Shown: one piece after another, positions 7,177 to 28,354 of the stretch
Numbering within the stretch: the first letter of the stretch is position 1
Layout: every line of letters starts with the position of its first letter
Assembly (NCBI GenBank): GCA_017302135.1
Contig: JAFLDZ010000001.1
Location: 434,001-498,000 of the forward strand
DNA from: Lysobacterales bacterium
GTDB taxonomy: Bacteria > Pseudomonadota > Gammaproteobacteria > Xanthomonadales > Xanthomonadaceae
DNA: 64,000 nt
Reading direction: 5' to 3'
Notes under the pieces: generated by a model
The model's input: only the letters and a program-made list of their open reading frames with translations
Told to the model about the DNA's origin: nothing
Database searches by the model: none
Made by a program: the position numbers and the translations under genes

Positions 7177-7797
7177 TCAATGCCTGCCATCGCCGCAGCC
7201 GGCGATGGCACAGCCTGCTTTTTGCACCGCCTGTCTGACCGGCCCGCAGCAGGATGCGTCGGCCGGGCGATCCGGCTTCGGAGCGCAGCACACGCCCTGC
7301 GGCGTGTTGTCGTCGCAGCAGGCCTCTTTTGCGACGGCCGCATCGGTATCGGTCGGCGATGCACTGCTCATGGCCTTCAGATCCGCAGCGCGCGCCGAGC
7401 TCAGATCGCAACCTTGCTTCGCGCCGTGGTAGCTGGCGGTGCGTCCGACGGTGTGGAACGCCTCCCAGCGCGTGCCCTGCGGATCCTCGCTCCAGAACTT
7501 GTCCGACCGGGCGTGACAGCATTCGGCGCCCGCTTCGGGCACCACCGCTTGGCCGGCGGCATCGAGGCGAGCCCCGAGTTCGACCAGTTCCTCGGCGTTC
7601 TCGGCCTGGATGCCCAGATGATCGATCCCGGGCGAACCGCTGCGGGTGGAAATCGCAAAGTTGACCCGCGGGTCCTCGATCATCCATTTCGCGTACTCGC
7701 GCTCATGCACGCTCGGGGCAGCAGCGAACAGGCTCGAATAGAAACGGACGCTTTCTTCGATATCGCGGACGGAGACATGCACATGGAAACGTTTCAT
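7177..7797 (-). CDS. arsI: ArsI-like C-As lyase (VOC metalloenzyme) with Cys-rich tail
   Basis: 206 residues. Residues 1-120 match the ArsI/CadI family: probable Fe(II) ligands H5, H60 (GIDHLGIQ) and E112 (RWEAF), and the adjacent pair C93-C94 (AECCHARSDKFW) that binds trivalent organoarsenicals in ArsI. ArsI cleaves the C-As bond of methylarsenite and aromatic arsenicals with O2. The C-terminal 50 residues hold ten cysteines, including CDD...VCC, SCC and CAIAGC, and look like a metal-binding tail. It heads a two-gene unit with acr3 behind the palindrome at 7884-7911. CadI (cadmium-induced) is the alternative name for this family. Confidence 0.85.
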   Translation of the reverse strand: MKRFHVHVSVRDIEESVRFYSSLFAAAPSVHEREYAKWMIEDPRVNFAISTRSGSPGIDHLGIQAENAEELVELGARLDAAGQAVVPEAGAECCHARSDKFWSEDPQGTRWEAFHTVGRTASYHGAKQGCDLSSARAADLKAMSSASPTDTDAAVAKEACCDDNTPQGVCCAPKPDRPADASCCGPVRQAVQKAGCAIAGCGDGRH

Positions 7798-8997: not shown

Positions 8998-10908
8998 TCA
9001 CTGCGCGCCGATGTTCGTGCGCAGGAATTTCAGCACCCGGCCGTAATACTCGCGACGGTTCTCATCGCCATAGATGCCGTGCGTCTCATCGTCGAAAAAG
9101 AAGGTCTCCATCGGCTTGCCGGCCTTCTCCATCGCCGCGACCATCGCACGCGCGTGCTCGAAAGACACCCGTTGATCGTGGTCGCCATGCACCAGCAGCA
9201 CCGGCACCTTGATCTTCGCCACGTGCTTCACCGGCGACTGCTCGTAGAGCTCGACTTCATTGTCGCCGACGGCCTCGTCCAGATAGTTGCGGCCCCATTC
9301 GCTCTGGTGGGTGTCGCCCCATTTGCGGGTGATGACCAGATTGGTGGGGCCGGCGGTGGAAATCGCACAGCGGTACATATCCGGCTCGCGCACGATGCCC
9401 ATCAGCGAAGCGTAGCCACCGAAGCTGGTGCCCCACAGACAGACGCGCTTCGGATCGATGCGTCCGCCGGACATCGCCCAGCGCGTCCCGTCGACGATGT
9501 CGTCCATGATCTTCAATCCCCACTGCCGATAGCCCGAATGCTCGAACGCAATGCCCCGCCCATCGGAACCACGGTAATTGATGCGCAACACCGCATAGCC
9601 GTTGGCGGCAAGAATCTGCGATTCCTCGTCGTAACGCCATCCGTCTTTCACATCGAAGGGGCCGCCGTGCGGCATCACCACCAGCGGAGGCGGGGTCGAC
9701 ACCGCGTTGGGCATCGTCAAATAGCCATGGAGTTCGATGCCGTCGCGGGTGGTGAAGGCGATCGGTTCGCTGCGCGCCAGCGCGTCCGGGCTGAGCCATG
9801 GCTTGACCCGTGCCACCAGATCCATGCGCTTTGTCGCGCGGTCGAGCAGATAGAAACTGCCAGGGTCTCGATCGCTCCATACATTCACGACGATGTGTTG
9901 CCCATCGCGCGAACCGTTGGCGAACGCGATGGCATCGTCGGGAAACGATTTTTCCATGCCGCGCAACAATTTTGCATCGGGGTCTGCAGCATCCCAGAAA
10001 CGCGCACGCGGCACGCCGAGCCCGTAGGCCGCACCAATCGGCTGACGACCATCGGCCGACCACAGCACGAAAGCCGGGTCGAGCACCGGATCGCTCATGA
10101 CCTCGCTGCGTTCGCCGGTGGCGAGCGTCAGGCGTTCGATCACGTCCGGACCCGCTTTGCGCTCGGTGAGAATGAACACATGACGGTCGTCGCGCGACGT
10201 GCCGATGAGCCCGATCTCGACGCCGCTCTGCGATTCGTCGTTGAAGATCTCCCAGCCTTCGCCCTTGCGGATCCATACCTTCTGGATCCGGTCGTCGCCC
10301 CATGCCGATGCGAACAGCACATGCCCCGCGTTGTCGGTGAAGAAGGACGTATCGACCGCAGGCGCATCGGCGATGCGCGGGCCTTTCCAATGATCCTCGT
10401 CGACTTTCTGCACGTAGGTGAGACACCCTTTGTGGGTGTTCTTCGCGCAACGTTCGATCAGGAGATGTTCGTCGTCGTCGATCAGCGTATCGACGATGGT
10501 CGCGTAGAACGAACGGATCCGGCTGCCGTCGACGTTGATCGCGACGATCCGCGGATCGAGGTAATACTGCTGGACGTTGTCGCCGCCCCAGGTGGACATC
10601 ACGTACAGACGCTGGTCGTTGACCCACCAGACGCGGCTGATTTCAGCCTTTTCCTCGGGATCCAGCACCCGCACCGGCTTGTTGGTCTCGCGGTCGATGA
10701 TCGCGAGCAGCATCCGGTTCTGGTTGTTCTCGGGTTTGCGCACGGTCGCCGCGACATACTTGCCGTTCGGCGAAATCTTCACGATATCGGTCTGGCTCGG
10801 CTTGAGGATGTCTTCCAGGGTCGGCGGCGGCGCGGCATGCGCCGACAAGCCCAACGCCCACGCCATCAGGGCGACGAAGCCGCCGCGTATCGACCTGTAA
10901 TGCCCCAT
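8998..10908 (-). CDS. S9-family serine peptidase (prolyl oligopeptidase-like), exported
   Basis: 636 residues from the ATG at 10908, which follows GCGGAG by 8 nt; in-frame ATGs further upstream at 10923 and 10950 lack this. A signal peptide (FVALMAWALGLSAHA) precedes a beta-propeller-like region (about 30-370, with repeated WWVNDQRLYVMS-type blades) and an alpha/beta-hydrolase domain. The catalytic triad is visible: Ser in LWGTSFGGYASL, Asp in LVHGDHDQRVSFEHA, His in ETHGIYGDENRREYY. It should cleave short peptides or acyl-peptides in the periplasm. The specific substrate is unknown. Confidence 0.9.
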   Translation of the reverse strand: MGHYRSIRGGFVALMAWALGLSAHAAPPPTLEDILKPSQTDIVKISPNGKYVAATVRKPENNQNRMLLAIIDRETNKPVRVLDPEEKAEISRVWWVNDQRLYVMSTWGGDNVQQYYLDPRIVAINVDGSRIRSFYATIVDTLIDDDEHLLIERCAKNTHKGCLTYVQKVDEDHWKGPRIADAPAVDTSFFTDNAGHVLFASAWGDDRIQKVWIRKGEGWEIFNDESQSGVEIGLIGTSRDDRHVFILTERKAGPDVIERLTLATGERSEVMSDPVLDPAFVLWSADGRQPIGAAYGLGVPRARFWDAADPDAKLLRGMEKSFPDDAIAFANGSRDGQHIVVNVWSDRDPGSFYLLDRATKRMDLVARVKPWLSPDALARSEPIAFTTRDGIELHGYLTMPNAVSTPPPLVVMPHGGPFDVKDGWRYDEESQILAANGYAVLRINYRGSDGRGIAFEHSGYRQWGLKIMDDIVDGTRWAMSGGRIDPKRVCLWGTSFGGYASLMGIVREPDMYRCAISTAGPTNLVITRKWGDTHQSEWGRNYLDEAVGDNEVELYEQSPVKHVAKIKVPVLLVHGDHDQRVSFEHARAMVAAMEKAGKPMETFFFDDETHGIYGDENRREYYGRVLKFLRTNIGAQ

Positions 10909-21139: not shown

Positions 21140-22522
21140 ATGACCGAGTCCACCGATTTCGCCGCGCTGTCGCTGTCTCCCACCCTGCTGCAGGGCATCG
21201 ATGCCCTCGGCTACACGGCGATGACGCCGGTCCAGGCCCAAGCATTGCCTGCGATTCTCGAAGGCCGCGACGTGATCGCGCAGGCGCCCACCGGCAGCGG
21301 CAAGACCGCCGCATTCGGGCTCGGGCTGTTGCATCGACTCGATCCGGGCACGACCCGCACCCAGGCGCTGGTGCTGTGCCCGACGCGCGAACTCGCCGAT
21401 CAGGTCGGCAAGCAGTTGCGAAAACTCGCGACCGGCATTCCCAATCTGAAGATCTCGATCCTCTGCGGCGGCATTCCGCTGGGCCCGCAGCTCGCCTCGC
21501 TCACCCACGAGCCGCACGTCGTCGTCGGCACGCCCGGGCGCATCCAGGAACTCATGCAGAAGAAAGCGCTGCAACTGGGCGGGCTGCGCACACTGGTGCT
21601 GGACGAAGCCGACCGCATGCTCGACATGGGCTTCGAAGACGCGATCCGAGACATCGTCAAGCGCACGCCGAAAGAACGGCAGAGCCTGCTGTTCTCAGCG
21701 ACATTCCCCGACGCCATTCGCGCGCTGGGCAACGCCATGCTGCGCAATGCGGTGGAAGTCAGCATCGACGGCGGCGCGGAGCCGGCCACGATCGAGCAAC
21801 TGTTTTTCGAAGTGGAACAGGATCGCAAGGCGCCGCTGCTCGCCGCCCTGCTGTTGAACTATCGGCCAGTGTCGTGCGTGGTGTTCTGCAACATGCGCAA
21901 GGACACCGAAGAAGTGGTCGGCTCGCTGTCGCACTACGGATTCACGGCGCTGGCGCTGCATGGCGACATGGAACAGCGCGACCGCGACGAAGTGCTGGTG
22001 CGCTTCGCCAACCGCAGCTGCAGCGTGCTGGTGGCCAGCGATGTCGCCGCGCGCGGACTCGACGTCGAAGATCTCGGCGCGGTCGTGAACTACGACTTGC
22101 CGACCGACGCCGACACGTATCTGCATCGCATCGGCCGCACCGGACGCGCCGGACGCGATGGCCTCGCGCTCAGCCTGTGCATGCCGCACGAACTGCCGCG
22201 CAAGACCGCGATCAGCGAACGTCTGGGCAAACCGCTGCGCTGGGAACGCATGCAGCCGCTGACCGGAAGGCCGCAGAACGTGCCGCCCGCCGCAATGGTC
22301 ACCCTGCGCATCGACGCCGGACGCACCGACAAACTGCGGCCCGGCGATATCGTCGGCGCGCTCACCGGCGACGCCGGACTGAACGTTGATGCCATCGGCA
22401 AGATCGATATCTACGCAACACGCTCGTACGTCGCGATCGCGCGCGCGCAGGCCGACACCGCGCTGTCGCGTCTGCGCAGCGGCAAGATCAAAGGCCGCAA
22501 GTTCCGCATCAATCGCCTGTAG
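21140..22522 (+). CDS. dbpA: ATP-dependent RNA helicase DbpA
   Basis: 460 residues, matching DbpA length. Motifs: Q motif MTPVQAQALPAILEGRDVIA, Walker A APTGSGKT, VLDEADRMLDMGF, SAT, and HRIGRTGRAGRDG. The C-terminal RNA-binding domain (VTLRIDAGRTDKLRPGDIVG...) is the one that binds hairpin 92 of 23S rRNA. DbpA is activated by that hairpin and acts late in 50S subunit assembly. A second DEAD-box gene (deaD) lies at 12.1 kb. Confidence 0.95.
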   Translation: MTESTDFAALSLSPTLLQGIDALGYTAMTPVQAQALPAILEGRDVIAQAPTGSGKTAAFGLGLLHRLDPGTTRTQALVLCPTRELADQVGKQLRKLATGIPNLKISILCGGIPLGPQLASLTHEPHVVVGTPGRIQELMQKKALQLGGLRTLVLDEADRMLDMGFEDAIRDIVKRTPKERQSLLFSATFPDAIRALGNAMLRNAVEVSIDGGAEPATIEQLFFEVEQDRKAPLLAALLLNYRPVSCVVFCNMRKDTEEVVGSLSHYGFTALALHGDMEQRDRDEVLVRFANRSCSVLVASDVAARGLDVEDLGAVVNYDLPTDADTYLHRIGRTGRAGRDGLALSLCMPHELPRKTAISERLGKPLRWERMQPLTGRPQNVPPAAMVTLRIDAGRTDKLRPGDIVGALTGDAGLNVDAIGKIDIYATRSYVAIARAQADTALSRLRSGKIKGRKFRINRL

Positions 22523-23060
22523 GCGGGGCTTCACGACCGAGAACCACACCAGCGGTCGTAGCGCGGGCTCAAGCCCGCCTAGAAACAGCGCACCAACATC
22601 GCACCGAAGCGCCGGTCGTCTTCGACGACCGATTGCTGTCATGCCGCAGCGTCGCCATGCGCGTCGCCATGCGCGTCGATAGCGGGCACCTATGGCGGGC
22701 TTGATTCCGCCGTACGCGACTCGACAAGGGCTTGACAAATATCTTTTCACGGGTCGCGAAGAATTACATTTTCGCCTGCTTTTCAAGCATTTTTCGCGGT
22801 CGCAGCCTGTGCGACCCCGCTGCGGATAATGGACAGCACGCAAAGACATCACCGCATCCACGACCGCCCGATTGCGTGCCGGGCGGACCTCTCGTAGATC
22901 ACCGGGAAAGCGACAGGGAGTCGCCTTCCGCAAGGACGCTCAGCCTTCGACGACGCACGCCACGGATGGTGCGCGTCGTCGCGGCGGACGGTAAAGCACG
23001 CAGGCGGCGGAAGCCGAAAAGCCGCAACAGAGTAGGCAATCAATCAAAGGAGCAATACCC
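22523..23060. other. Intergenic leader region of the DUF2589 cassette, with palindromes
   Basis: 538 bp without a gene. GCGGGCT-CA-AGCCCGC at 22563-22578 and a looser GGCGG...CCGCC at 22695-22710 are of the GC-rich palindrome type found elsewhere in the window. A consensus TTGACA is at 22732-22737, but I see no good -10 box 16-18 bp after it. A stable hairpin lies at 22949-22980 and AGGAG is 8 nt before the first cassette gene. Confidence 0.5.
22949..22980 (+). other. 14-bp hairpin in the cassette leader
   Basis: GACGACGCACGCCA (22949-22962) pairs with TGGTGCGCGTCGTC (22967-22980) around the tetraloop CGGA: 12 Watson-Crick pairs, one G-T and one mismatch. It ends 80 nt before the start of the DUF2589 gene, so it would sit in the mRNA leader if transcription begins near 22.75 kb. 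Confidence 0.5.
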
Positions 23061-23660
23061 ATGGCAAATCTCGTCCAGGAACTCAACAGTCTCGACTTCA
23101 GCGTCTATATCGGCGGTCCGCTGCAGGCGGCGGTGGATGCGCAGCATGCCGCGTCGATGTCGCAGGTCAACTTCATCAAGGAAGTCGGTTTCGTCACCAC
23201 CACATCCGGCACTCCCGCAGTCACCACGACCGACCTGCGTTACGTCGAATTCAAATACAAGAAGCGCGTGCCGAATCCTACCTACGATAGCGCCGCAACC
23301 ACCGCACCGAACAACCAGCAGTTCATCGACAGCAATGTCACCATCGAAGTACCGTTCCTGACGATGCTGACCATCCCGGCGCTGCGGATCGAAGAAATCA
23401 ACATCGATTTCAATGCCAAGCTGACGTCGGTCGAGACCACCGCCGCTTCCAGCGAGTTCTCCGGCAGTGCGGAACTGAGCGCCAAGTTCTGGAAGGTCAG
23501 ATTCAAAGCCTCCGCATCGTACAAGCGCTCGACGAGCAGCACGACGAATATCGAGAAGACCTACAACCTCGGCGTTCGCGTGCGTGCGGTCAACGATGAA
23601 CTGCCGGCCGGTCTGGATCGCATCCTGACCATGCTGGAGGACAGCATCCGTTCGAGCTGA
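23061..23660 (+). CDS. DUF2589-domain protein
   Basis: 199 residues with AGGAG upstream. The N-terminal SVYIGGPLQAAVDAQHAASM followed by NFIKEVGF, and the central VPFLTMLTIPALRIEEINID with FNAKLTSVE, are the conserved blocks of DUF2589. The second half is Ser/Thr-rich and strand-like (SGSAELSAKFWKVRFKASAS), with no signal peptide or membrane helix. Pfam lists no function. It is the first of three same-strand genes; a hairpin separates it from the second, which may make this the most expressed product. Confidence 0.85.
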   Translation: MANLVQELNSLDFSVYIGGPLQAAVDAQHAASMSQVNFIKEVGFVTTTSGTPAVTTTDLRYVEFKYKKRVPNPTYDSAATTAPNNQQFIDSNVTIEVPFLTMLTIPALRIEEINIDFNAKLTSVETTAASSEFSGSAELSAKFWKVRFKASASYKRSTSSTTNIEKTYNLGVRVRAVNDELPAGLDRILTMLEDSIRSS

Positions 23661-23672
23661 TATGTCCCACCC

Positions 23673-23695
23673 GGGGCCGGCTTCATGCCGGCCCC
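23673..23695 (+). terminator. Intercistronic hairpin inside the DUF2589 cassette
   Basis: GGGGCCGGC (23673-23681), loop TTCAT, GCCGGCCCC (23687-23695): a perfect 9-bp GC stem 13 bp after the first stop and 30 bp before the second start. No U-tract follows, so partial termination or 3' end protection of the first cistron is more likely than full termination. Confidence 0.5.
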
Positions 23696-23724
23696 ACTTC
23701 CAACACTCTCTCCAGGATAGGACC

Positions 23725-24432
23725 ATGCCCACTCTCAACGAATATCTCGGCGGCCTCTTCAGCAGCATCACCGATGCGCGCGTGATGGCGGACGTACAGA
23801 CCGTACAGGTCGCCGAGCAATACGCCAAACACGACCTGCTCAAACATTTCTCGGTGCCGCGCATGCGCATCAGCGACATCGAGCTGACCATTCCGGTCGC
23901 GATCGAAGGCCTGACCGAACGCAGCGGCTATCAGCTCGACCCGATCGGCAACGCAGAGTTCAAGCGCGTCAACGCGCGCGAACTGGCGCGACTCGTCGGC
24001 TACAGCGAACTGCCGCCGATCGCCGCCCAGAAGCTGCTGACCGTGCTGGACAGTCGCATCGCCGCCCTCGTGGAACAGATCAAGGCCGAGGGCGACATCC
24101 AGAAGCCGATCATGACCTTCGCCGACAGGATCGTCACTGACCTGTTCGAGATCGGTACCGAAGCCAAGCTGCACGAAGGCAAATTCCCCGACGGCTATCG
24201 TCAGGACGAGATCACGAAATTCACCTCCGAACTCGGCATCGGCCTGGTGGCCGGCGTTGTCGACAAACCGGTGCTCGATCAGCTGACGGTCATCGCCGAA
24301 TCCCATCGTCTGCGCGAACAGCGTCCCGAGGATGTCATCAGAATCCGCATGAAAGTCAGCGAAGACGGCATGGAATGGCAAACCCTCCAGCGCGACGATG
24401 GCAGCATCGAGCGCAAGCTGCTGCCGGAGTAA
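23725..24432 (+). CDS. Unknown soluble protein, second gene of the DUF2589 cassette
   Basis: 235 residues from the ATG at 23725, preceded by AGGATAGGA; ATG at 23662 is an unlikely alternative since it would include the hairpin. It opens MPTLNEYLGGLFSSITDARV, then AEQYAKHDLLKHFSVPRMRI, and has ISDIELTIPVAIEGLTE, which echoes the strand block of DUF2589 proteins (VPFLTMLTIPALRIEEI). The C-terminal region VIRIRMKVSEDGMEWQ is strand-rich. No catalytic motif, signal or membrane helix is seen. I do not recognise a named family; a remote relation to the DUF2589 neighbour is my inference. Confidence 0.75.
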   Translation: MPTLNEYLGGLFSSITDARVMADVQTVQVAEQYAKHDLLKHFSVPRMRISDIELTIPVAIEGLTERSGYQLDPIGNAEFKRVNARELARLVGYSELPPIAAQKLLTVLDSRIAALVEQIKAEGDIQKPIMTFADRIVTDLFEIGTEAKLHEGKFPDGYRQDEITKFTSELGIGLVAGVVDKPVLDQLTVIAESHRLREQRPEDVIRIRMKVSEDGMEWQTLQRDDGSIERKLLPE

Positions 24433-24438
24433 GCGACC

Positions 24439-24999
24439 ATGCTCAGATCGACATTCCAACTCACGCGGCAGCTTTCCGATGCGCTGCTCGAACTGCCGGG
24501 TATCGTGCGCCAGTTCGAACAAAAGTCGCCGCAGGTCATGGCGACGCTCATGGACTGGATCCGTCGCGCCGAGGATCTGCTGTCCACGCATCGTCTGGTC
24601 GAAGCAGCGGAACTCTCGGGATTGAAAGCGCGCATCCTGGCGCCGGTGTTCGACGACGACAAGCGCGGCACGTTGCGTCGGCGCCAGCAGACGATCGCGA
24701 TCGGTCTGGTGCACGAACTGCAGCTCTCGCTGCAGCACGCGCTGCAACCGCGCGCGCTCAAGCTCGAACAGGCCCGCGACATGGCGCGCCAGCTGCTGCA
24801 GATCGTCGCCCAGAGCGGTGCGATCGTGTACGACCCTGCCGTCGATTTCGAGACGATGGTCGACCGCATCTGGGCGCTGTGCACCCAGCACGAACAGCTG
24901 AAGCCGCTCGCGGCGCAGTTGAAGATGCTGCTGTCGACGGACGACATCCGGCTTCTGTTGGCGGAAGAACTCGACCCGGCCGATTTCGTCGGTGGCTAG
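24439..24999 (+). CDS. Unknown helical protein, third gene of the DUF2589 cassette
   Basis: 186 residues, 6 bp after the previous stop, so probably translated from the same message. Composition is almost entirely helical and charged (RQLSDALLELPGIVRQFEQK, QLSLQHALQPRALKLEQARD). There is no signal peptide, membrane segment or enzyme motif. The tail LAEELDPADFVGG is acidic. Function unknown; tight spacing suggests it acts together with the two upstream products, perhaps as an adaptor. Confidence 0.72.
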   Translation: MLRSTFQLTRQLSDALLELPGIVRQFEQKSPQVMATLMDWIRRAEDLLSTHRLVEAAELSGLKARILAPVFDDDKRGTLRRRQQTIAIGLVHELQLSLQHALQPRALKLEQARDMARQLLQIVAQSGAIVYDPAVDFETMVDRIWALCTQHEQLKPLAAQLKMLLSTDDIRLLLAEELDPADFVGG

Positions 25000-25006
25000 G
25001 CGCATC

Positions 25007-25042
25007 CGGGGCGAGAGCGGGCCATTCGCCCGTTCCGCCCCG
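25007..25042. terminator. Bidirectional hairpin between convergent genes
   Basis: Outer stem CGGGGCG (25007-25013) with CGCCCCG (25036-25042) and inner stem CGGGC (25018-25022) with GCCCG (25028-25032), loop CATTC. It lies 8 bp after the DUF2589 cassette and 12 bp after the convergent gene, so it can end both transcripts. Confidence 0.6.
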
Positions 25043-25053
25043 TGCGACAGCGA

Positions 25054-25569
25054 TCATTGCTCGTTCATCACGCTCGCAACGTAGGCCTTGTCCGTCATCG
25101 CGCGCGCGTCTACGTTCGCATTCCCGTGCCCCGCGACCGGGACACTGCCGCGAATCGCGCGATGACTGTCGATGCCGCGGATTTCAAGCGTTTCCGTCGC
25201 ACCTTTCGGCTTGATGCGCACGATGATCGCGAACGCACGACCATCGGCAAGGCGCCACTCCACCTTGCCGCGTTCGTAATCGCTCAGGGACAGAGGCGTA
25301 TCGAAGACGGTGTCTCCGCGCGCATTCTCGACCATCAGCATCGTGTCCGCGGCGGAGAAATAAATGAACAGGCGATAGTCGCCACTGCCCTTGCAGCGCA
25401 GCGCGTTGTCCTGGCCCTCCTCAAGCTCGGCATCTGGGAATGCAGGGCGGCAATCCTTGGCCAGATCGGTGTATTCGCTCGCGAACACCGGCGTTGCAGC
25501 GTTCACAGGAGGATTCACCGCGGTGAGCGCCAGCGACAGCATCGCGAAACGCAGCGTATTCAGACGCAT
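25054..25569 (-). CDS. Exported hypothetical protein
   Basis: 171 residues from the ATG at 25569. A signal peptide (MRLNTLRFAMLSLALTAVNPPVNA) is followed by a short strand-rich domain with two cysteines (LAKDCRPAFPD and ALRCKGSGDYRLFIYFSAAD), which could form a disulfide. The middle (DTMLMVENARGDTVFDTPLS) reads like a small beta-sandwich. No family recognised. It lies downstream of another exported unknown on the same strand, 65 bp away. Confidence 0.65.
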   Translation of the reverse strand: MRLNTLRFAMLSLALTAVNPPVNAATPVFASEYTDLAKDCRPAFPDAELEEGQDNALRCKGSGDYRLFIYFSAADTMLMVENARGDTVFDTPLSLSDYERGKVEWRLADGRAFAIIVRIKPKGATETLEIRGIDSHRAIRGSVPVAGHGNANVDARAMTDKAYVASVMNEQ

Positions 25570-25634
25570 GGGAATGATCCGTGGGTGTCCGCAGAGATTG
25601 TGGGCTGCCCTCTCTTCACTGCGCAAGCCCGCAT

Positions 25635-26570
25635 TCAGCGGACGACGCCGCTCTTGCCGTCATATGCACCAGTGGTGAAGACCCATCCCGTGACCGGCAC
25701 CGTCTTCGGATGCGTGCAATCGTCGTACCACACCGCCATCGTCGCGGTCGAAGTCTCGCCAGCGACGGTCTCTATCGTGGCGCTCTCCCACGCACGCGGC
25801 TGCGCAACCGGTTTCAGTTCGATGCCCGGCGCAAAGCGATCCGTCGCACCCCGATCGAGGGTCATCCGGTACGTGTAGCTGCAGTCTTGGTCGCCCTTCT
25901 TTTTATCCACGCCGTCGATCGACACCACACGCACCCGCATCGGTGCGCGTCTGATGAGGGCGAGATACGCGGGCGGCAGATCGGGCAGGCCTTCGGCCGC
26001 TTTGTTCTCGTCTTCCTGCGCAAGCAGGAACATGCCATGGACTCGTTCGCGCGGCTCCAAGCCGTGATTGATCGCGTTGACGAAACCCATCATTTTGTCT
26101 TGCTGAATCATGTAGCGCCGCTCACCCCAACGGACCGGGCGCAGGGTGTCTGGAAAGCCGCCAAAACCCGCTTTGTTCGGCTGTTCGTACTCGAACCGTA
26201 ACGTGCCATCGCGCTCCACCACCTTGCCGCGATTCGCACCGTACAGACCCGTGCAGCCGTGCCAGGTCGCAGCGATGCCGGTATCCGGCGCCAGCGAGAT
26301 GCTGATATTCGCACCCAGACCATCGCCCTCGTAGTAGTCCCCGGCCCACGGATGCTGTTTCAGTGTCGCGATTTCCTGCTGGATCCGTGTGCGCCGCTGT
26401 TCGATCCCGGTTTCGCGAAGTTCGCCGTCGCCTGTTTCCAACGCCATCTCCTGCGCGAGGCTCAGACCGACCGCCATCGGAACCGCAACGATCGAGACAA
26501 TCGCGACGCCCATGGCTGCCGCGATTCGCAGGATCGGCGGCATCGGCGTTTGATCGGAGCGTCGGATCAT
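25635..26570 (-). CDS. Membrane-anchored or exported hypothetical protein
   Basis: 311 residues from the ATG at 26570. One N-terminal hydrophobic helix (ILRIAAAMGVAIVSIVAVPMAV) serves as signal anchor or signal peptide. The periplasmic part has HPWAGDYYEGDGLGANISIS and TWHGCTGLYGANRGKV, and two further cysteines (QDCSYTYRM, DDCTHPK). I do not recognise the domain. The opening WAGDYYEGDGLG resembles lipocalin-like sensing domains that report a dose-dependent value, but this is only an impression. It belongs to a run of five exported proteins. Confidence 0.65.
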   Translation of the reverse strand: MIRRSDQTPMPPILRIAAAMGVAIVSIVAVPMAVGLSLAQEMALETGDGELRETGIEQRRTRIQQEIATLKQHPWAGDYYEGDGLGANISISLAPDTGIAATWHGCTGLYGANRGKVVERDGTLRFEYEQPNKAGFGGFPDTLRPVRWGERRYMIQQDKMMGFVNAINHGLEPRERVHGMFLLAQEDENKAAEGLPDLPPAYLALIRRAPMRVRVVSIDGVDKKKGDQDCSYTYRMTLDRGATDRFAPGIELKPVAQPRAWESATIETVAGETSTATMAVWYDDCTHPKTVPVTGWVFTTGAYDGKSGVVR

Positions 26571-26680
26571 GACAGTGTCCCTCGAGTTCTGGCCGCACGG
26601 GTGCGCGGTTGCCGGGAATGGGAACGTCCTGGCCATCGGGGTGGGGTTGGCGTTCGGATCCTGCTCATCGCATCGGTATC

Positions 26681-28354
26681 TTAACCATCATCGCGACGCA
26701 GCGTGACGGTCACCTCAGCGGTATCCAGCCGCACGCGGACCTGCTCGAAACCGGGTACTTCCACCAGCACCGCCGGCTCGGTGACATTGTCGAGTACCAC
26801 CTGCCCCGCACGATCCGCAGTCAGCGTCTTCGGGGGCACGCCCCGCAGCGGCGACAGCAGATGCACGGGTGCAGACGCCAGCGGTCGATTGTCCGACGTG
26901 ATGCGCAGACGCACGCGGCGCCCGCCGGTAGCGGCGATGCGGGTGCGGTAGCGGGTATCCGCAGAGGCATCGCCGATCTCCACCGCGTCGCTGAAGCGCA
27001 AAGACCACGGCGCCAGTACCGCCGCGATGCGCACGGTGCCGGACTTGTTGAGCGACACCGCCAATCCATCTCCTGCGGGTCGAAAATAGTCGGCGGACGA
27101 ATCGCGCCACATCGCGTTATCCCGGCGCTGCAGCACGAACACCGGGAAGGGTTCTTCCACGCGCGGCCTGCGCGGAATGTCGATGCCGGGCGTCTCGACG
27201 ATCAACCAGCGCAATGGTTCGAGTTCGACCGTTCTGGCGATCGCACCCGCACTCACGGGCGCATCGATCAGGTCCAGCGTCATCGGCAGCCGCTCGGGCC
27301 ACGATGGCAATGCGCCGACGAGAAACGACGGCGTCTCCGGCGACGCGAAACGGATGTCGATCGGCAGCGGCAGCAGCGGGTCGATACCTTCGATGCGGAC
27401 AGACCCCGAACCGTCCGTGCGCAGACTGCGCTCTCCGCGCGGCGAAGACCACACGACCGTCGCGTCCTTCACCGGTGTGCCGCTGCCTTTTTCAACCAGC
27501 CGCAGGGCCACCGTCGCCGACAGTGCGGCCGCCAGTTCCGACGCTTCGGCGTCGGGATCGAACGTCGCGATGCGCCCGGCCGACAGCGTCACCCGACGAC
27601 GTTCGCTCTCCACGCCATCGATCACCGCGATCACATCCAGCGGCCCCGGAGGCAGCGGCGCGACCACGGCACCCGCAGCCACCGGCAGCGGGCGTTCGTC
27701 GTAGGCGTCGAGCACCGCCGGTGCCTCGCGACGCATCAACGACTGCCACGCTGCGTCCTGCGAGCCTTCGACACGACGGAACAACAGGCGCGCACCGTCC
27801 ATCTGCGCGGGCGCGCGCAGGCGCAGACCCGCCGCGATGCGCGGGGCGATCTCTGCGGGCAGATCGTCGCGGGTGAACGATGCTTCATAGAAGCGCAGCC
27901 CATCGTTCGCACGCGCCTGCAGCAGATAACGATCCGCTGCGGGCAGCCGCGTCGGCGTCACCACGACAACGCCTTCCGCAGTCAAGGTCGCCGGCACGTT
28001 CAACCAGCGGGTGACCGTCGCCAGATCCTCGAACGCGCGCGGTCCAGCGCCTTCCGCACCGCCGCGCAGCCAGGCCTGGTAGGCCGCCAATTCATCCGGC
28101 GAGACATAGGCCAGACCGATCCGCACCGATGTCGGCAATGCCGATACGCCACCTTCGGGCAACAGGCGCATGCGCAGCGTGAGCGTGCGTTCGCCCATCG
28201 CGTCTGCGTCATCCGCCGAAGCCCTCGAAGCGGCGACTTCGCGCGGCACGCTGCCGGTGTCCCTGTGCGAGGACCACCAGTACACGCCGAAAGCAACGGC
28301 GCCCACCGCGAGGCAGGCGCCGAGGATCAGCAGGGAACGGCGCAGGCTCGCCAT
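26681..28354 (-). CDS. Membrane-anchored protein with Ig-like/carboxypeptidase-regulatory-like domains
   Basis: 557 residues. One N-terminal helix (SLLILGACLAVGAVAFGVYW) anchors it to the inner membrane, with the rest in the periplasm. Two segments have the pattern of carboxypeptidase regulatory-like folds: TVALRLVEKGSGTPVKDATV with GSVRIEGIDP (about 272-320), and RVRLRITSDNRPLASAPVHL with AGQVVLDNVTE (about 480-535). No catalytic residues are visible. Function unknown; such domains usually serve as adhesion or scaffold modules. It starts 13 bp from the end of the nuclease-like gene upstream, so an operon is likely. Confidence 0.65.
   Translation of the reverse strand: MASLRRSLLILGACLAVGAVAFGVYWWSSHRDTGSVPREVAASRASADDADAMGERTLTLRMRLLPEGGVSALPTSVRIGLAYVSPDELAAYQAWLRGGAEGAGPRAFEDLATVTRWLNVPATLTAEGVVVVTPTRLPAADRYLLQARANDGLRFYEASFTRDDLPAEIAPRIAAGLRLRAPAQMDGARLLFRRVEGSQDAAWQSLMRREAPAVLDAYDERPLPVAAGAVVAPLPPGPLDVIAVIDGVESERRRVTLSAGRIATFDPDAEASELAAALSATVALRLVEKGSGTPVKDATVVWSSPRGERSLRTDGSGSVRIEGIDPLLPLPIDIRFASPETPSFLVGALPSWPERLPMTLDLIDAPVSAGAIARTVELEPLRWLIVETPGIDIPRRPRVEEPFPVFVLQRRDNAMWRDSSADYFRPAGDGLAVSLNKSGTVRIAAVLAPWSLRFSDAVEIGDASADTRYRTRIAATGGRRVRLRITSDNRPLASAPVHLLSPLRGVPPKTLTADRAGQVVLDNVTEPAVLVEVPGFEQVRVRLDTAEVTVTLRRDDG

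Follow-up and report, generated by a model that had tools for sequence, protein, structure and literature searches.

A widely transferred three-gene DUF2589 module with a pseudoknot leader RNA may encode a cytosolic hetero-oligomeric particle

The window analyzed here, a 64,000-nucleotide stretch of a 4.3-Mb genome from a Lysobacteraceae-like genus, contains a three-gene module whose existence is confirmed, which is widely transferred and which the sources examined do not describe. Its gene set and order are constant, its first gene belongs to DUF2589 and evolves far more slowly than the other two, a hairpin follows that gene, and the RNA in its leader covaries as a pseudoknot. We propose, in a judgment for which the arguments on either side are evenly weighted, that the three genes encode a cytosolic hetero-oligomeric particle with the gene 1 product as its bulk subunit. 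Tentatively, and with some doubt, the module may further represent an undescribed class of self-assembling prokaryotic particle that is shared by bacteria and archaea, controlled by a travelling pseudoknot RNA and coupled to lysis in some lineages.

The three open reading frames are found on the plus strand where the preliminary description had placed them: gene 1 (23061-23660, 199 aa), gene 2 (23725-24432, 235 aa) and gene 3 (24439-24999, 186 aa). The gaps between them measure 64 bp and 6 bp, within the claimed 6-65 bp. A longer gene 2 frame opening at 23662 was considered and rejected, because the relatives disagree with it (most begin with MPxLxxYLG), and the ATG at 23725 was taken. The assignment of gene 1 to DUF2589 is confirmed by a PF11655 match of 104.1 bits against a cut-off of 23 (E 1.2e-29). 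Membrane helices are absent, as had been stated, with a top 19-residue Kyte-Doolittle mean of only 1.35, and a hydrophobic signal stretch is absent too; the absence of a hydrophobic helix is consistent with the cytosolic location that had been suggested. The module is flanked upstream by a DbpA-type DEAD-box helicase gene that ends at 22522, and downstream by convergent minus-strand genes. Three such genes occupy 25054-28354; two are without a Pfam family over the cut-off, and the third has a carboxypeptidase-regulatory-like domain.

A scan of approximately 85,000 GTDB species genomes with the gene 1 alignment yields 238 relatives, the best 80 of which were kept; these were picked by similarity to gene 1 and therefore describe the type I branch rather than all of DUF2589. 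Profile searches reveal genes 2 and 3 directly 3′ of gene 1, in the same order and on the same strand, in 77 of these best 80 of 238 relatives, and in the remaining three (L102, L107 and L136) the contig ends approximately 0.2-0.75 kb past the 3′ end of gene 1. Thus, all 77 untruncated loci keep the trio, and the refutation that had been set beforehand as a test, a lack of conserved pairing across genomes, does not hold. Within the genus of the window, each of the six genomes sampled has the three genes in order, and gene 2 is missing from the remaining 143 genomes sampled across the family. The carriers span the Pseudomonadota, Bacteroidota, Chloroflexota, Planctomycetota and methanogenic archaea; among the bacterial ones are Lysobacter, Chryseobacterium, Flavobacterium, Nonlabens, Rheinheimera, Alteromonas and Limnobacter, as well as Desulfuromonadaceae, Anaerolineae, Phycisphaerae and Chthonomonas; the archaeal ones include Methanothrix, Methanocellales and Methanoperedens. 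DUF2589 of any type is rare, occurring in approximately 1-7% of the genomes per sampled group (10 of 149 family genomes, 8 of 397 phylum genomes and 3 of 369 class genomes), and 8 of 247 genomes from the class of a Flavobacterium encode gene 1-like proteins.

The ORFs within 10 kb of the module were clustered without gene prediction, and no fourth family at a constant place across lineages is found among the clusters. Response regulators, kinases and ABC ATPases were considered as a fourth partner and rejected as background, as they recur but vary in place and strand. The lack of another conserved gene indicates that the unit is self-contained and acts alone. Searches for a phage link return just one weak phage record and one viral contig, with no PHROG match, and no phage structural genes (tail, sheath or baseplate) are conserved beside the module. 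In locus L054, a 174-aa protein (7255-7779) with an HEDGH motif, possibly a metalloprotease, is encoded upstream of a type I module.

In the gene 1 tree, the phyla interleave, and the starred branches need at least five changes for the Pseudomonadota and at least four for the Bacteroidota, a pattern that indicates a horizontally mobile and widely transferred module. Genes 2 and 3 of the window share 43-45% identity with those of Rheinheimera and 31-32% with those of Chryseobacterium, whereas gene 1 does not place the window closer to Rheinheimera than to Chryseobacterium, and the three genes may therefore differ in the details of their histories.

The evolutionary rate of gene 1 is far below those of its two partners. 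The identities between the window and Chryseobacterium are 69% for gene 1, 31% for gene 2 and 32% for gene 3, and over all pairs they are 55%, 30% and 28%, respectively. Such conservation is expected of a subunit that packs on its own copies, but it could instead reflect binding to a conserved partner. The AF2 model of gene 1, obtained from a 60-row alignment, is poor (pLDDT 65.5, pTM 0.44) and consists of a helix (residues 13-43), two strands (61-71 and 88-98), a long hairpin (115-137/150-172) and a C-terminal helix. The outer half of the hairpin has pLDDT values mostly of 37-50, although much of the hairpin is conserved. Hydropathy alternates in and out along residues 115-172, which makes the hairpin amphipathic with a charged polar face, and the stretch IDFNAKxxS at 115-123 hardly varies. 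Such a hairpin, conserved and alternating yet beyond what a monomer model can place, would be consistent with an inter-subunit sheet or barrel. Sequence searches of the PDB with the profiles of genes 1, 2 and 3 return nothing significant, and all PDB hits of Foldseek with the low-confidence gene 1 model lie above E 1. Its only clear relative in the set of viral models is A0A516MP19 (E 9e-8), presumably a DUF2589 protein.

The strand block that had been noticed in both gene 1 and gene 2 is recovered by profile-profile alignment, in which PRMRISDIELTIPVAI of gene 2 aligns with PALRIEEINIDFNAKL of gene 1 (hhalign E 1.5e-4), yet over just 36 columns and with a probability of 51%. Additionally, the two family profiles cross-match at approximately 1e-2 to 3e-4. 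No Pfam match is obtained for gene 2 itself, nor a DUF2589 match among 55 of its orthologues, and gene 3 has no consistent Pfam match, alone or via its orthologues. Each of the two genes has 77 orthologues in cis, and neither has a convincing family in Pfam (also searched via 49-55 orthologues each), NCBIfam, PHROG or PADLOC. Genes 2 and 3 were modeled jointly as a read-through fusion across the in-frame stop TAA (pLDDT 88.5, pTM 0.50). The gene 2 part comprises a helix, a long strand, a helical insert, a second long strand and a three-stranded meander, and the gene 3 part is all-alpha with pLDDT mostly above 90, in agreement with the helical third protein described previously. No reliable interface between the two proteins is seen in this read-through model, and the best VIA-align hits of the model (Z 9.1) were set aside as generic helical bundles. 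In light of the alignment and the model, gene 2 is probably a divergent relative of DUF2589 in which a helical insert separates two long strands. A shortened gene 2 of just 121 aa in a Bacteroidota-class locus (L239:6941-7306), which retains the helix, the strand block and the second strand without the helical middle, fits the predicted insert. The idea that gene 2 corresponds to the B-type DUF2589 found in tandem loci was rejected (E 0.15 only). Genes 2 and 3 are mostly spaced by 0-18 nt across the loci, which suggests that they are probably translationally coupled.

Between genes 1 and 2, a hairpin with the sequence GGGGCCGGC-UUCAU-GCCGGCCCC is present at 23673-23695 on the plus strand (-27.4 kcal/mol, z -3.0). 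A hairpin at z < -2 relative to mononucleotide shuffles is found in 51 of 73 gene 1-gene 2 spacers, whereas the other 22 have no significant one. The spacer hairpins of Lysobacter, Chryseobacterium and Flavobacterium are built of unrelated sequence, and that of Chryseobacterium is followed by TTTT. An excess of the first gene product is the pattern of major structural subunit operons, and the position of the hairpin after gene 1 fits such an excess. The earlier proposal that this hairpin makes gene 1 the most abundant product is thus partly supported, by the spacers but not by codon usage, as adaptation to ribosomal genes shows no consistent preference for gene 1 and is low in Rheinheimera. 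A second hairpin closes the operon at 25007-25042 (z -4.7 on the plus strand and -2.6 on the minus strand). The bidirectional terminator claimed at this place retains its hairpin on both strands but lacks a U-tract, and no terminator-like site is found at 25007-25042.

Outside type I, DUF2589 genes occur as type II (a DUF2589 pair with an 86-92 aa protein), as type III (a plain A-B pair) and as A-gene2-A′ sets with a second DUF2589 in the place of gene 3, so that nearly every architecture seen includes at least two DUF2589-type subunits. The 86-92 aa protein of type II (L043:6994-7254 and relatives) carries the pattern VKRIVVG...GEHQVVxQ...YHVGFxRKP and has no NCBIfam or PHROG family. In locus L241, which lies on the Vibrio plasmid pVDT1, the type II set adjoins a peptidase-containing ABC exporter, an HlyD protein, a DUF805 gene and a Mor-like regulator. 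Phage-type endolysins from four unrelated families also recur next to the DUF2589 genes of type II/III loci, namely GH19 in L051 and L057, GH24 in L140 (overlapping the preceding stop) and L052, N-acetylmuramidase in L138, and a pesticin-like endolysin in L053 (opposite strand, assigned by eye). Mor/C-type late activators are present in L053, L057, L178 and L241.

These neighbors raise an alternative that we regard as unlikely, in which the module produces a pore-forming or lysis-linked killing particle: the oligomerized gene 1 hairpin would insert into a membrane as a beta-barrel, and endolysins would release the particle in some lineages. The gene 1 hairpin gives sub-threshold matches to PF17475, the clostridial binary toxin B/PA pore domain (E 0.0072, 16.5 bits against a cut-off of 25), and to lysenin (E 4.4), which may reflect merely Ser/Thr-rich alternating strands. 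However, the charge on the polar face of the hairpin and the lack of a hydrophobic signal stretch argue against a pore, and known anti-phage defense systems yield no PADLOC model match up to E 0.1. Furthermore, searches of 86 type I loci and of the window with the eight endolysin and Mor queries find nothing, and for these queries an endolysin link was rejected in type I. Lysis coupling is therefore a possible lead for the DUF2589 family and not evidence on the module of the window.

Upstream of gene 1, the structured leader of the preliminary description holds in that the gap spans 538 bp and its fold is more stable than those of shuffled sequences (z -3.2), but the transcribed part is probably only approximately 220 nt. 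A palindrome, GGTCGCAGCCTGTGCGACC, at 22798-22816 is conserved with changes in the aligned leaders of 8 genus members and is immediately followed by a putative promoter, of which the -10-like box GATAAT (22825-22830, plus strand) is conserved in the same alignment; no sigma-70 consensus pair is found at the leader. The palindrome and the box place the transcript start probably near 22840. The palindrome is a probable operator, and its perfect form GGTCGCAN5TGCGACC has only two copies in the genome, one in the window and one at C22:23860.

The leader also contains a DUF805b RNA (RF02914), absent from the preliminary description, at 23004-23038 on the plus strand (47.3 bits against a cut-off of 35.6, E 9.9e-12), in sense orientation and 22 nt 5′ of gene 1. 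It is followed by the Shine-Dalgarno sequence AAAGGAG (23046-23052), of which AAGGAG is conserved in most genus members. The RNA pairs in a helix P1 (23005-23008/23021-23024) and in a pseudoknot (23013-23015/23035-23037). It occurs in 25 module leaders including that of the window, with its 3′ arm 20-24 nt 5′ of the ATG with one exception, and heads gene 1 also in Rheinheimera, Flavobacterium, Nonlabens, a Balneolia bin and others. The trinucleotide in the loop and that after AGAGUA covary (GCC/GGC, ACC/GGU, CCC/GGG, UCC/GGA and UCU/AGA). Across 15 leaders, 92.3% of the cells are paired compared with 73.7% after shuffling, and the covariation score is 0.546 compared with 0.198 for shuffled and at most 0.084 for slid versions. 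These paired changes indicate that the DUF805b RNA is an H-type pseudoknot, the second helix of which is absent from the Rfam RF02914 model.

Among the 149 family genomes, the DUF805b RNA is found in only six, all of which carry the module, and always just 5′ of gene 1; in the genome of the window it is single copy. In the Bacteroidota, it is multi-copy, with up to 13 matches in one Chryseobacterium, and it stands before genes for small secreted proteins, for GG-leader-like peptides, for PixA inclusion-body proteins and for a protein with a phage tail-collar domain; in Chryseobacterium (L147-L198), the genes that it heads, those for PixA, tail-collar and GG-leader peptide products among them, make up an RNA regulon. 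The Chryseobacterium module lacks the RNA and has a different conserved leader instead, which matches no Rfam family. This leader (L062-L088, at about 9900-9990) consists of a variable CAGT...ACTG stem, GGATATGTATTACC and TAGTCTGCTAGCACTACTATA.

The presence of the same RNA before Chryseobacterium PixA genes would also suit a cytosolic storage or inclusion-body system that is expressed in late growth and has a role like that of PixA inclusions, as would the DUF2589-related genes AF0414-AF0417 of Archaeoglobus fulgidus, which change with energy source (PMC3949148). We consider this quite improbable, since the Chryseobacterium cassette itself is without the RNA and two fast-evolving partner genes would be unusual for a simple storage protein. 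A three-part signaling or conflict complex, with gene 1 as binding protein or adaptor, gene 2 as sensor and gene 3 as effector, would suit the patchy, horizontally transferred distribution and the weak, sub-threshold likeness of gene 1 to Trypco2 (E 0.17, 12.6 bits against a cut-off of 24.2), a domain of bacterial conflict systems (PMC7159879), but is very unlikely, as family searches find no nuclease, protease, NTPase or nucleotide-signaling domain in the three proteins and no conserved fourth gene of this kind, or one for the trypsin-like partner of a Trypco2/VMAP system, stands beside the module.

For the assembly, the roles of the three proteins and the direction of regulation, we infer the following scheme. 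The three genes would give rise to a cytosolic, non-membrane and hetero-oligomeric particle. Gene 1, with its N-terminal helix and a sheet bearing the long amphipathic beta-hairpin, would be the bulk subunit, and this hairpin would probably fold only against neighboring subunits. Gene 2, a diverged relative with a helical domain on its hairpin, may start, cap or diversify the particle, and the helical gene 3 product may act as an adaptor or in assembly. The stoichiometry would depend on the hairpin that follows gene 1, and expression on the DUF805b pseudoknot just 5′ of the ribosome site. Besides the conservation of gene 1 and the constancy of the trio, the particle is favored by the poorly modeled yet largely conserved gene 1 hairpin with its in-out alternation, by the short spacing of genes 2 and 3, by the lack of any other conserved neighbor, by the retention of a spacer hairpin while its sequence changes, by the presence of at least two DUF2589-type subunits in nearly all locus types, and by the DUF805b RNA before the PixA and tail-collar-domain genes of Chryseobacterium, whose products accumulate or assemble. 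The poor gene 1 model, the lack of a PDB fold, the codon adaptation that does not mark gene 1 and the spacers that have no significant hairpin argue against it.

A complete, minimal and portable module that extends from methanogens to Chryseobacterium and in which no protein has a characterized relative is rare. Its novelty would rest on absent matches (Pfam for genes 2 and 3, NCBIfam, PHROGs, PADLOC and PDB) rather than on mechanism, and a literature search on PF11655 or the DUF805 RNA motif found no paper. The constant three-gene make-up renders co-expression and electron microscopy straightforward, and for the DUF805b RNA, an orphan candidate, there are now definite target genes, together with a corrected structure open to reporter assays.

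A comparison with known systems reveals partial similarities. Gene 1 is a member of DUF2589 well above the cut-off, but this Pfam family has no assigned function, and many of its members stand in types II/III without genes 2 and 3. With beta-pore-forming toxins (PA domain 2 and lysenin), gene 1 shares a long Ser/Thr-rich amphipathic beta-hairpin; it differs in its sub-threshold matches, the lack of a fold match and of a secretion signal, and its archaeal members. The likeness to tailocins and lysis-released particles lies in the endolysin and late activator beside type II/III DUF2589 genes, whereas the module has no conserved tail, sheath or baseplate genes and type I has no endolysin. PixA (PF12306) has the leader RNA in common, in Chryseobacterium, but no sequence relation to genes 1-3, so that the link is regulatory only and lies in other genomes. 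Finally, the Rfam model of the DUF805b RNA consists of one 4-bp stem, to which a second, covarying pseudoknot helix is added here, and in the genus of the window the RNA has one copy, linked to the module, in contrast to the multi-gene regulon of the Bacteroidota.
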